Of a DNA stretch of 64,000 nucleotides, positions 46,188-49,833 are shown piece by piece. Position 1 is the first letter of the stretch, and every line of letters starts with the position of its first letter. Below the pieces are notes generated by a model that was not told where the DNA came from, ran no database searches, and was given only the letters and a program-made list of their open reading frames with translations. The stretch lies in contig NZ_LNDE01000003.1 of the NCBI RefSeq assembly GCF_002866025.1, positions 62,001-126,000 on the forward strand, read 5' to 3'. The position numbers and the translations under genes were made by a program. The DNA is from Thermotoga sp. KOL6 (GTDB taxonomy: Bacteria; Thermotogota; Thermotogae; Thermotogales; Thermotogaceae).

Positions 46188-46736
46188 CTATACCTCCTTG
46201 CTTTCAAGATTCTTTTTCAGCTTTTCTAAGATCTCGAATCTACTGTCGACCACAGGAATTTTATCACACCGATGATCGGGTTCTTCGTTCAGATTCACCC
46301 CACAATATGGACAGAGACCTTTACAATCCGGACTACACAAAACCTTGTCTGGAACGGCTACAACTATAGCTTCAATTATTCTCTCACTCAGATCGAATTC
46401 CGTCTCATGATAGTATATTATGTTCTTCAAAGATTCAAGTTTCTCCTCCTTTACATTTTTCCGCATACTTTCTGGAAGATAAAGTGCCTCTATCACTCCG
46501 TTTATTTCTACTCGTGTTGGTTCTAAGCATCTGTCACAAGGATGTTCTATCACTGTTCTCACATAACCACCAACTGTAAAGCCATCTTTTGTTTTAGCTA
46601 CTACCATTTTCACTTTTACAGGTTCTAAAAATTTACAGTATCCAATGTCGAGGTCGATTCCATCTTGCTCGAACTCTCCCTCTAAAAAGAAGCGTTTCTT
46701 TTTTTCTATCTCTGCTAGTTCGACTTTCCAATTCAT
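46188..46736 (-). CDS. DUF177 (YceD-like) protein
   Basis: A 182-residue DUF177/YceD-type protein. Bacteria commonly encode it directly upstream of rpmF, and it is linked to 23S rRNA accumulation in some species. The two Cys pairs (CDRC near residue 68; CSPDCKGLCPYCG near residue 142) are typical. I start at ATG 46736, after GAGGTGAT and four bases. The GTG at 46745 belongs to the SD. It is the first gene of the operon that runs leftward from the replication origin. Confidence 0.9.
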   Translation of the reverse strand: MNWKVELAEIEKKKRFFLEGEFEQDGIDLDIGYCKFLEPVKVKMVVAKTKDGFTVGGYVRTVIEHPCDRCLEPTRVEINGVIEALYLPESMRKNVKEEKLESLKNIIYYHETEFDLSERIIEAIVVAVPDKVLCSPDCKGLCPYCGVNLNEEPDHRCDKIPVVDSRFEILEKLKKNLESKEV

Positions 46737-46759
46737 TTTCATCACCTCTTTTCGAAACT

Positions 46760-46787
46760 ATTATACTCTTAGTAGTAGTAGTAATAA
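46760..46787 (-). promoter_or_regulatory. Promoter of the DUF177-tsaD operon
   Basis: On the minus strand TATAAT (46765-46760) is preceded at 16 bases by TTATTA (46787-46782), a weak -35. The promoter lies in the trinucleotide-repeat edge of the origin, so initiation proteins bound there could affect it. Confidence 0.5.
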
Positions 46788-46790
46788 TAA
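46770..46790 (+). repeat. Trinucleotide run (TAG)4(TAA)3, candidate DnaA-trios
   Basis: Seven consecutive triplets read TAG four times, then TAA three times. Read 3' to 5', the strand gives the pattern [G/A]AT repeated, which matches the DnaA-trio element known from other bacteria. It begins 11 bases from the nearest DnaA box and extends away from it in the 3' to 5' direction, the expected geometry. The role is inferred. Confidence 0.55.
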
Positions 46791-46801
46791 TACCATTGCA
46801 A

Positions 46802-46956
46802 AGTGGTAGGTTTAGAGATATGAAAATTTCTATTGTGCATCAGAAAAGGGATAGAATTGATACTGCAACTTACCACCCAGGTGGTAGGTCAGTGGTAGGT
46901 TAGTGGTAAGTTATTCTGAAATCGTCTTCAATAGAGCGATTTAGGGTGGTAGGTTT
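46802..46956. repeat. Left DnaA-box group (six boxes)
   Basis: Boxes by position, with matches to AAACCTACCACC or its complement: 46802-46813 (minus, 11/12), 46866-46877 (plus, 10/12), 46880-46891 (minus, 10/12), 46891-46902 (minus, 10/12), 46902-46913 (minus, 9/12) and 46945-46956 (minus, 12/12). The third to fifth boxes repeat at exactly 11 bp. The second and third face each other as TACCACC-CA-GGTGGTA. Confidence 0.88.
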
Positions 46957-47051
46957 TCTGAAAAAGCCTTTTGATGAAGGTTTTAGAGTCTAAAAAATTC
47001 AGTGAAAGATTATTTTTAATGACTAAAGGTATCATCAAAAGCTTAAGATAA

Positions 47052-47224
47052 AAACCTACCACTCGTAAAGACCTTTATAAAGGTATTTTCAGAAAATGGT
47101 GGTAGGTTTCTTGTGAAAATATTCACTTTCTGGTTTTTTTTCGGAAACTTATACATCATGTTGTATGATATTCATGCCTAGTAACTACAAATTGTGTTCA
47201 TAACTTACCACTAAACTTACCACT
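47052..47224. repeat. Right DnaA-box group (four boxes)
   Basis: Boxes lie at 47052-47063 (plus, 11/12), 47098-47109 (minus, 12/12), 47201-47212 (plus, 9/12) and 47213-47224 (plus, 10/12). The last two follow each other at 12-bp spacing. They point opposite to most of the left group. Confidence 0.82.
47071..47084. repeat. 14-bp perfect palindrome within the origin
   Basis: ACCTTTATAAAGGT is its own complement. It sits between two DnaA boxes of opposite orientation (47052-47063 and 47098-47109). It may be a binding site for another origin protein or a cruciform-prone element. The function is unknown. Confidence 0.6.
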
Positions 47225-47291
47225 TGATTTTCCCAGAGGATCACTTTCAAAATTAATTTCATAATATCGACGGAAAAGGAGGTGTGATATT

Positions 47292-47939
47292 GTGAGCTTA
47301 AGGAACGAACTTTGGATGTGGAAAAAAGAAAAAGTTGCAGAGGTAGTCTCTAACAATTTAAAACGCAAAAAACATGAAGTTTGGATTCTTCAAGACGTAA
47401 AGGATATTCTCGAAAAAGTAAAAGAGCTTATCCCCGAAGGTTCAACTGTTGCGGTTGGTGGTTCTCTCACTCTATTGGATACCGGTATCTTAGATATTCT
47501 AAGAAGAGGGAAATACAACTTTCTTGACAGATACAGCGCAAAGACTCGGGAGGAGATAGAGGAGATCTATAGAAAAAGTTTTTGGGCAGATTACTACTTA
47601 ACCAGTGCCAACGCTGTGACAGAGGATGGAAAGTTAGTCTTCCTTGATGGGAACGGAAACAGAGTAGCTGCTGTTGTTTACGGTCCACGGAACGTGATAG
47701 TGGTGGTGAGTGTGAACAAAGTTGTAAAAAATGTCGAAGAGGCAAGAGAAAGATTGAGATATATCTCTCCTATGAATTCGAAACGATTGAACCTCGAAAC
47801 ACCTTGCGCCAAAACAGGTTTTTGTGCAGATTGTTCTTCCCCCCAGAGGATATGTGATTACTTCATGGTGGTAGAGTCTGGTGTGAGACAGCCGGGAAGA
47901 TTCAAGATATTGTTGACTTTGGAAGACTTTGGACTTTAA
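47292..47939 (+). CDS. LUD-domain protein (LutC-like, DUF162)
   Basis: A 215-residue protein with the lactate-utilisation (LUD) fold. Recognisable parts are VAVGGSLTLLDTGIL near residue 53, YYLTSANAVTEDGKLVFLDG near 101 and a Cys group at 172, 178, 181 and 188 that could hold an Fe-S cluster or zinc. No lutA or lutB partner is adjacent, so a role in lactate oxidation is not supported by context. The start is GTG 47292 with a strong SD (AAAGGAGGTGTGAT). It is the first gene to the right of the origin and ends at a bidirectional terminator. Confidence 0.8.
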   Translation: MSLRNELWMWKKEKVAEVVSNNLKRKKHEVWILQDVKDILEKVKELIPEGSTVAVGGSLTLLDTGILDILRRGKYNFLDRYSAKTREEIEEIYRKSFWADYYLTSANAVTEDGKLVFLDGNGNRVAAVVYGPRNVIVVVSVNKVVKNVEEARERLRYISPMNSKRLNLETPCAKTGFCADCSSPQRICDYFMVVESGVRQPGRFKILLTLEDFGL

Positions 47940-47963
47940 AAAGCGGGGAATTCTCCCCGCTTT
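47940..47963. terminator. Bidirectional terminator between LUD and DUF4914 genes
   Basis: AAAGCGGGGA/TCCCCGCTTT form a perfect 10-bp stem with an ATTC loop. The stem's own A and T runs give short U-tracts in both directions. It lies between convergent genes and slightly overlaps the end of the DUF4914-like gene. Confidence 0.85.
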
Positions 47964-49833
47964 AAAAGTTCATCGGTATGATTTTTAAATAATCTTCCAG
48001 TGAACCGTCGTCTAAGCAGCATTGTATAATTTCTCTTCCAACTGGGTTCAAATCATCGGTGAGGAATTTTTTTAGTTGTTTTTTGAAAAACTCTTTGAGT
48101 TCTTGAGAGCCTTTTTCAAATGCTTTTTCGCCAACCTCCGGTTGAAGATGTGGTTGTAAAAGCTCTTTTGGAATCATAATTCCTTCTATTTTCATCTCTT
48201 TCAACGAAAAACCAAGAAGTGTACACTTTGCCGGAACTAGCTGATTCGGTCTGAATCTTACACCACCTCTTCTTGAGAGATACTCTCTTGCAATCCATTC
48301 CGGCATAAATCCAACCTTGTAAGCACCAATATGCTGGTTGGGGACAAGAATGTATCTCGTTCCAGGTGTATCGATGATTTGTTCGAGCAGTATGTTAGCC
48401 AACCTTACCATTTTCCCGGAAGAAAAAGGCCAAAAGGTTCCTACTCCCTCACTTGTCATGCCTTTGGTGCTGACGATACTTGGATTGGCGAATCCCCTTG
48501 GCGCTGCCAGTCGCCAGAGCCATGCTATAGCTGGAGGTAGCACTTGCATGAGGCCTACGATCCCATACGTTGGCTTCTCTTTGGTACATGGAGGTGTCCT
48601 CACTCCAAAACTTCTAACGTCCACCTCTACAGGATCAGATATCGCGTCTTTCATGAAACGTTTTGGAAGAATAACTCGTGGGTTTGGACAAGGTTTCCCA
48701 GGTTCATCTTCTATGTGTTCCCAAATCAAAGCCGTTGAATTGGGGACAGCGTATATGTTGAAGAAAATAAGTGGTTCGGGCGGGTGAATGGTTAATCTTT
48801 CAAGATCTGGTGCACTTCCATAGTTAGTTATGTGATCCACTCTGATGAACCAACCAGCTTCTGCATCTTTCGCCACGAGTTTTTTTCCAGTTTGAAGTTT
48901 TGGATGACACATGAACATATCGTCTGCCACAGGTTGTAGCTTACAAGTTTCCTTGAGATCTATGTAGAAAACCTCTCCGGTTAGTATGTTTTCTGCCAAT
49001 TTTATTCTTCCGTCTGGTTCTCTGTGGATTTCTTCGAGAATTTCACTTTTTCCACCGCCACTGGCACCCTCGTGCATGATCACGAGCTCGTTCTCGTAAG
49101 GAGTGATTACTTTCACTGCTGAAGCGTGTGCAGTAACCCATTTTTCTTTTTCCCCTATGTGAAGCAAGAAACCATAGACGCCCTTTTTCGCACTGGGACC
49201 AGGATAGAGGTTGTAAGAGAAGATTTCGTAATGAGAGTTGTGTCTGTAATGTACCACCACCTGCTTGCCTTCGAAGTGAGTATGTCTGAAAGGAGGGGCA
49301 AGAAACATGTACAACTTCGGTTTGAAATTTTCGGGGACTTCGTCTGCCGGGATAAAAAATTGTAGATCAGCAAGTCCCCCTACGAAGAATCCTGCGTTTT
49401 TCGGTGCTACTAGTACGGCAGGATATCCATAATCGTATCCTCCAGCCATGAAAGGCATGATGATCAGCTCTTGTCTTTTTAGCCATTCAAAGGTTTCCTC
49501 TCTCACGGGCTCAAAATCCATTCCAAATCTTTCTTTGAACCTTGGTTTATCTGTTTCCATATTGTCACCAACTACGAGTGCATTTGGATCTCTCCTTCTC
49601 ATATACGGTTCTGGATAGTTTATCACCAATCCGTTTTTGCACCGTGTGACAATAGCTTCTACTACGAACCCTTTTCCAGGAACTTCGTAGCCCACCTCGA
49701 ACAAATCCTTATCGGCTATTGCAATTTCAAGAATTTCTTTTCTACTTTCTGGTATTATTATTTCAGGAGCATTCTCTACAATATCTCTAACTTCTTCTGA
49801 AAATACAAATCTTTCTAAAATGCTTGTTTTCAC
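47962..49833 (-). CDS. DUF4914-like protein with P-loop (PEPCK-like)
   Basis: A 623-residue protein that I recognise, with moderate confidence, as the DUF4914 family. A P-loop-like GASGGGKS is at residues 256-263, preceded by a strand (ELVIMHE), as in the PEP carboxykinase/HPr kinase fold. The GTP-PEPCK loop ACGKTN is absent, so I do not call it a carboxykinase. Other conserved-looking stretches are FRHTHFEGKQVVVHYRHNSH near residue 182 and HIGAYKVGFMPEW near 500. There is no signal peptide. The start is GTG 49833 behind GGGGTGATAAT. It is monocistronic. Nucleotide-dependent kinase or carboxykinase activity is possible but untested. Confidence 0.65.
   Translation of the reverse strand: MKTSILERFVFSEEVRDIVENAPEIIIPESRKEILEIAIADKDLFEVGYEVPGKGFVVEAIVTRCKNGLVINYPEPYMRRRDPNALVVGDNMETDKPRFKERFGMDFEPVREETFEWLKRQELIIMPFMAGGYDYGYPAVLVAPKNAGFFVGGLADLQFFIPADEVPENFKPKLYMFLAPPFRHTHFEGKQVVVHYRHNSHYEIFSYNLYPGPSAKKGVYGFLLHIGEKEKWVTAHASAVKVITPYENELVIMHEGASGGGKSEILEEIHREPDGRIKLAENILTGEVFYIDLKETCKLQPVADDMFMCHPKLQTGKKLVAKDAEAGWFIRVDHITNYGSAPDLERLTIHPPEPLIFFNIYAVPNSTALIWEHIEDEPGKPCPNPRVILPKRFMKDAISDPVEVDVRSFGVRTPPCTKEKPTYGIVGLMQVLPPAIAWLWRLAAPRGFANPSIVSTKGMTSEGVGTFWPFSSGKMVRLANILLEQIIDTPGTRYILVPNQHIGAYKVGFMPEWIAREYLSRRGGVRFRPNQLVPAKCTLLGFSLKEMKIEGIMIPKELLQPHLQPEVGEKAFEKGSQELKEFFKKQLKKFLTDDLNPVGREIIQCCLDDGSLEDYLKIIPMNF

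Follow-up and report, generated by a model that had tools for sequence, protein, structure and literature searches.

The replication origin of Thermotoga maritima (tma-oriC) has been characterised biochemically (Ozaki et al. 2006; Lu et al. 2023, PMC10316083). Its DnaA box has been published as AAACCTACCACC, of which the origin holds ten copies (PMC4285127, PMC10316083), and an oligomer of ATP-DnaA assembles on boxes 1-5 (PMC10316083). Unwinding requires the TAG repeats, which the DnaA on boxes 3-5 binds in single-stranded form. It is impaired when 5 bp are inserted next to box 1 or box 2, whereas an insertion of 10 bp has no such effect; box 2 functions in either orientation, the reversed version having unwound like the wild type in vitro; and a minimal origin of 149 bp that keeps boxes 1-5 and lacks boxes 6-10 can still be unwound in vitro (PMC10316083).

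The window analysed here is a stretch of 64,000 nucleotides, positions 62001-126000 of contig C3 in a genome of 1,708,152 bp assembled as six contigs. We consider it almost certain, judging from the sequence, that in this Thermotoga, which is not T. maritima, chromosome replication starts in the region at 46746-47291 (no strand assigned), between a yceD gene and a LUD-domain gene, and that this region corresponds to tma-oriC. The features that mark it are its length free of open reading frames, the GC3 skew minimum that it holds, and its share of the ACYTACCAC cores of the genome. This type of origin is already known; it is present here in another species. At 546 bp the gap is the longest stretch in the window without an open reading frame of at least 60 amino acids, and the runner-up, among stretches not touching the window end, is 162 bp. 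Its A+T content is 67.4% against 58.4% window-wide, and its sequence occurs once in the genome.

Between 46802 and 47224 there are ten near-copies of AAACCTACCACC with zero to three mismatches (six on the minus strand, four on the plus strand), and in all ten the core 9-mer ACYTACCAC is free of mismatches. Two are exact, box 6 (46945-46956) and box 8 (47098-47109), both on the minus strand. Box 1 (AAACCTACCACT, 46802-46813), box 3 (TGACCTACCACC, 46880-46891), box 4 (TAACCTACCACT, 46891-46902) and box 5 (TAACTTACCACT, 46902-46913) are also on the minus strand; box 2 (CAACTTACCACC, 46866-46877) is on the plus strand, inverted with respect to boxes 1 and 3-5, as are, on that strand, box 7 (AAACCTACCACT, 47052-47063), box 9 (TAACTTACCACT, 47201-47212) and box 10 (AAACTTACCACT, 47213-47224). 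The core occurs 28 times genome-wide: ten of these copies are packed into 421 bp of the gap, and the remaining 18 are scattered without clustering. A Poisson estimate puts the chance of such a cluster at about 2e-24. A search across the whole genome for a second box cluster, of the datA or DARS kind, found none. A lone exact AAACCTACCACC lies elsewhere (G000:C2:252399-252410), in a 4-kb stretch without open reading frames longer than 190 amino acids. The first-pass annotation of this DNA had described the largest gene-free stretch of the window, carrying ten near-copies of a 12-mer in both orientations together with AT-rich spacers, and had taken that 12-mer for the Thermotoga DnaA box; each of these statements agrees with the counts above, and the 12-mer is the same as the published T. 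maritima box (PMC4285127, PMC10316083).

To the left of box 1 lies a predicted DNA unwinding element (DUE; 46759-46795, plus strand), recognised by its stability and by alignment. It is AT-rich and comprises TATTAT (46759), then, where at least three tandem TAG triplets would be expected beside box 1, four of them (46770-46781, an eTrio), and after these TAATAATAATA. It aligns with the tmaDUE, TATTATTAGTAGTAGTAAATAATAGG, and the least stable 30 bp in the 64 kb, a 30-mer at 46763, falls inside it. Seven Thermotoga genomes share, without change, a minus-strand TATAAT (46765-46760) that precedes yceD and abuts the TAG repeats; the yceD-rpmF-plsX promoter may therefore overlap with the DUE. Since a promoter scan of the region gave no excess over shuffles, we offer this overlap as a suggestion only. 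An Rfam search of the region returned no RNA family.

The correspondence with tma-oriC extends to each element. The genome of 1,860,725 bp that we take to be that of T. maritima MSB8 (G036) has the same structure upstream of yceD. The oligonucleotides of the tested origin (Lu et al. 2023, PMC10316083) match the DUE and boxes 2-5 of G036, and the same elements of the origin described here align with them. Both loci have ten boxes of the same sequence, with core ACCTACCAC or ACTTACCAC, whose order and orientation agree and whose spacing nearly does: box 2 is inverted, 13 bp separate it from box 3, and boxes 3-5 follow at 11-bp steps. The distances of the minimal origin (65, 13, 11 and 11 bp) are identical here, in G036 and in five further Thermotoga genomes. 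A TAG-repeat DUE, the neighbouring yceD and a distant dnaA are likewise common to both. The differences are small. Our DUE has four TAG and then three TAA, against three TAG and then AAATAATA in T. maritima; the last TAG lies 21 bp from the core of box 1 rather than 19 bp; the sequence leading up to box 1 lacks the GC-richness seen in T. maritima (CCATTGCAAA vs GGGGACGCAG); boxes 5, 9 and 10 have ACTTACCAC; and box 5 is 43 bp from box 6 instead of 42 bp.

The left neighbour is a yceD/DUF177 gene (46188-46745, minus strand; PF02620, 107 bits), which occupies this position in each of the seven Thermotoga genomes and also in the sister genus (G035). Its true start is probably the ATG at 46736, with a ribosome-binding-site-like AGAGGTG ahead of it at 46749-46743, and the gap may therefore begin about 10 bp further left. 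From yceD/DUF177 through rpmF, plsX and glmS on to clpX, the genes left of the gap run leftwards. The right neighbour is a LUD-domain gene (47292-47939, plus strand; PF02589, 194.6 bits) that runs rightwards, away from the gap, and adjoins the origin in the sister genus too. Next but one to the origin is a gene for a DUF4914 protein (47962-49833, 623 aa; PF16260, 1072.7 bits), as it is in the sister genus. The dnaA gene lies on another contig (C1, region G000:C1:6635-6835), and in G036 also it is far from the origin (944 kb vs 157 kb). Its product retains V176 and K209 of tmaDnaA, which bind the single-stranded DUE, and the arginine finger R251, and its helix-turn-helix is near-identical to that of tmaDnaA. 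The YceD and DnaA proteins are about 85% and 84.5% identical to those of T. maritima, so the genome is not that of T. maritima but of another Thermotoga species.

Replication-strand composition switches at the same site. Gene orientation made the raw GC skew noisy, its minimum on the contig being at 112 kb, 3 kb right of the gap, and we therefore used a strand-corrected measure, GC3 skew, in which G minus C at third codon positions is summed after removal of the mean of each gene strand. Along the whole of contig C3 (157,373 bp; 132 genes), the cumulative minimum falls between a gene end at 108745 and a gene start at 109291, which is this gap. None of 5000 permutations within strands was as low, and the sign of the GC3 skew flips across the gap for both gene strands. 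For the other two large contigs, skew was read from sampled 20-kb stretches, and six contigs give no closed curve. The C2 samples are positive throughout for plus-strand genes and the C1 samples go from weakly positive to mostly negative, a pattern compatible with one origin in C3 and a terminus in C1, given an inferred contig order. The first-pass annotation had noted that the left flank mostly runs away from the region, had called an origin and had proposed a skew check. The leftward genes from yceD through clpX accord with the first remark, and the check, run on the whole of contig C3, places the strand-corrected minimum in this gap. The origin call is thus supported by the skew and by the agreement, one element after another, with the tested origin of T. 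maritima; this agreement makes the call firmer than box counting alone would.

Comparison across genomes adds a constraint on spacing. The ten boxes, their order and their orientation are identical in the seven Thermotoga genomes, as are seven of the nine box-to-box distances (65, 13, 11, 11, 108, 45 and 12 bp); only the intervals between boxes 5 and 6 (42-43 bp) and between boxes 8 and 9 (104-107 bp) vary. Invariant columns number 74 of 81 in the boxes and 99 of 329 in the spacers, and in the long fixed intervals 1-2, 6-7 and 7-8 the identity of the spacers between species drops to 54%, 49% and 42%. In alignment, then, the right half, boxes 6-8 above all, appears as constrained in spacing as the left, and it is omitted from the 149-bp minimal origin.

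Beyond the genus, a second family that includes Pseudothermotoga (f2) has a cluster of TATCTACCAC-type boxes beside a gene for a CBS/ACT-domain protein, with glnA on the other side where this could be read; the cluster is clear in nine of the ten f2 genomes where the CBS/ACT-domain gene was located and weaker in the tenth (G006). In five genomes (G009, G011, G010, G008 and G002) the box positions coincide with the Thermotoga slots, of which 1-8 are kept within 1-4 bp: five to six boxes agree within 1 bp and seven to eight, of eight to nine, within 4 bp. Random placements did equally well at most 24 times in 2000 at the 1-bp tolerance and at most 5 times in 2000 at the 4-bp tolerance, and never for G011, G008 and G002. 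Boxes 2 and 8 are reversed in f2 relative to Thermotoga. As the T. maritima origin with box 2 reversed unwound like the wild type in vitro, this reversal can be regarded as a similar experiment performed by nature. In G009 the GC3 skew minimum lies one gene from the cluster. Tandems of at least three boxes at 11-bp spacing were found, in 1.18 Mb of 20-kb stretches, only at three origins, those of the present genome, G036 and G009.

In the sister genus and in some genomes of the Fervidobacterium family, three or four boxes on the plus strand follow one another at 11-bp steps in the right half, mirroring boxes 3-5. In one member of that family (G017; G017:C18:112001-312000), the cluster at about 212.8 kb lies 12 kb from a GC3 skew maximum at 200.7 kb, not at a minimum, which counts against the origin reading; genes tend to run away from the cluster, as they would from an origin. 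The neighbours differ by family: yceD and the LUD-domain gene in Thermotoga, the CBS-ACT gene and glnA in the relatives of Pseudothermotoga, and the vicinity of a DUF4416 gene in the Fervidobacterium family. Searches around the genes bordering the origins of relatives gave no comparable cluster in genera g2, g3 and g5, which belong to the same family (G032-G034, G042-G044), or in genera g12-g14 of family f3 (G023-G031). As far as the aligned loci indicate, the chromosomal address of the origin shifts between families and its inner geometry stays.

A cluster of DnaA boxes need not be an origin. It could serve as a locus for titration or reactivation of DnaA, like datA or DARS of E. coli, or it could mark promoters through which DnaA regulates yceD and the LUD-domain gene. 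These two genes diverge from the region, so that both of their promoters must lie within it, and the TATAAT before yceD is invariant. Set against this are the TAG-repeat unwinding element at the right distance from box 1, a skew that switches exactly at the gap, a genome without a second cluster that could be the origin instead, and promoter predictions no better than in shuffled sequence, and we regard a purely regulatory role as very improbable. Less probable again, to the point of being negligible, is an iteron origin left by an integrated plasmid or other mobile element. Iteron origins, too, have short repeated boxes next to an AT-rich stretch, but the boxes here are of mixed orientation, not uniform direct repeats, and match the chromosomal DnaA box, the neighbours are conserved housekeeping genes (YceD, L32 and PlsX) along with LUD and DUF4914 with no adjacent Rep gene, and the layout is kept in all Thermotoga genomes examined.

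A third possibility accepts the origin and confines function to its left half, the DUE with boxes 1-5, leaving boxes 6-10 as remnants or as sites for transcription of the neighbours. The in vitro unwinding of the 149-bp minimal T. maritima origin on boxes 1-5 (PMC10316083) is what such a view would predict, as is the variable interval between boxes 8 and 9 (104 to 107 bp). Remnants would hardly be expected to hold the 6-7 and 7-8 distances (108 and 45 bp) identical in seven species over spacers down to 49% and 42% identical, or to keep slots 6, 7 and 8 within 1-4 bp in a family with different flanking genes. We think this view unlikely, although it deserves more weight than the other two. What we propose in its place is tentative, and we would give it slightly under an even chance: the Thermotogales origin would be a scaffold of fixed positions, in which the distances between slots are conserved across families and box sequence, orientation and address change, and slots 6-10 would be a second site of DnaA binding that cells need in order to initiate normally, for instance to load the second helicase. 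We infer such a role for boxes 6-10 in cells, as an additional place of DnaA binding, from their conserved spacing.

Given that the gap is an origin of the T. maritima type, the same mechanism can be suggested for it, because every T. maritima element recurs here with little or no change in distance. ATP-bound DnaA would occupy the ACYTACCAC cores and form a head-to-tail oligomer over boxes 1-5; the interval between boxes 1 and 2 would bend, probably with the help of HU; the AT-rich unwinding element left of box 1 would melt; and the TAG repeats would be kept single-stranded by the DnaA on boxes 3-5 (single-stranded-DUE recruitment), leading to helicase loading. Binding, melting and loading at this locus are thus presumed by analogy with the published T. 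maritima biochemistry. Alignment of origins from seven Thermotoga genomes, from a sister genus and from two more families makes a comparative system of what was a single-species origin. The comparison supplies a natural counterpart of the in vitro reversal of box 2, and it marks boxes 6-10, absent from the minimal origin, as a constrained part. The wider comparison of fixed slots may have been noticed earlier in the literature.

Set beside better-known bacterial origins, the locus shares with E. coli oriC a single DUE next to a region of DnaA boxes, boxes in both orientations and, by analogy here, recruitment of the single-stranded DUE by an ATP-DnaA oligomer (PMC10316083). The E. coli origin differs in its box (TTATCCACA), in having an IHF site, in left-half boxes that all point one way, and in a single-stranded DUE motif of TTGT/TTATT where the motif here is TAG. 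The DnaA-trio origin of B. subtilis likewise places TAG-type trinucleotide repeats beside a DnaA box (PMC10316083); unlike the present origin, whose dnaA is on another contig, that of B. subtilis is split by dnaA and uses the canonical box.
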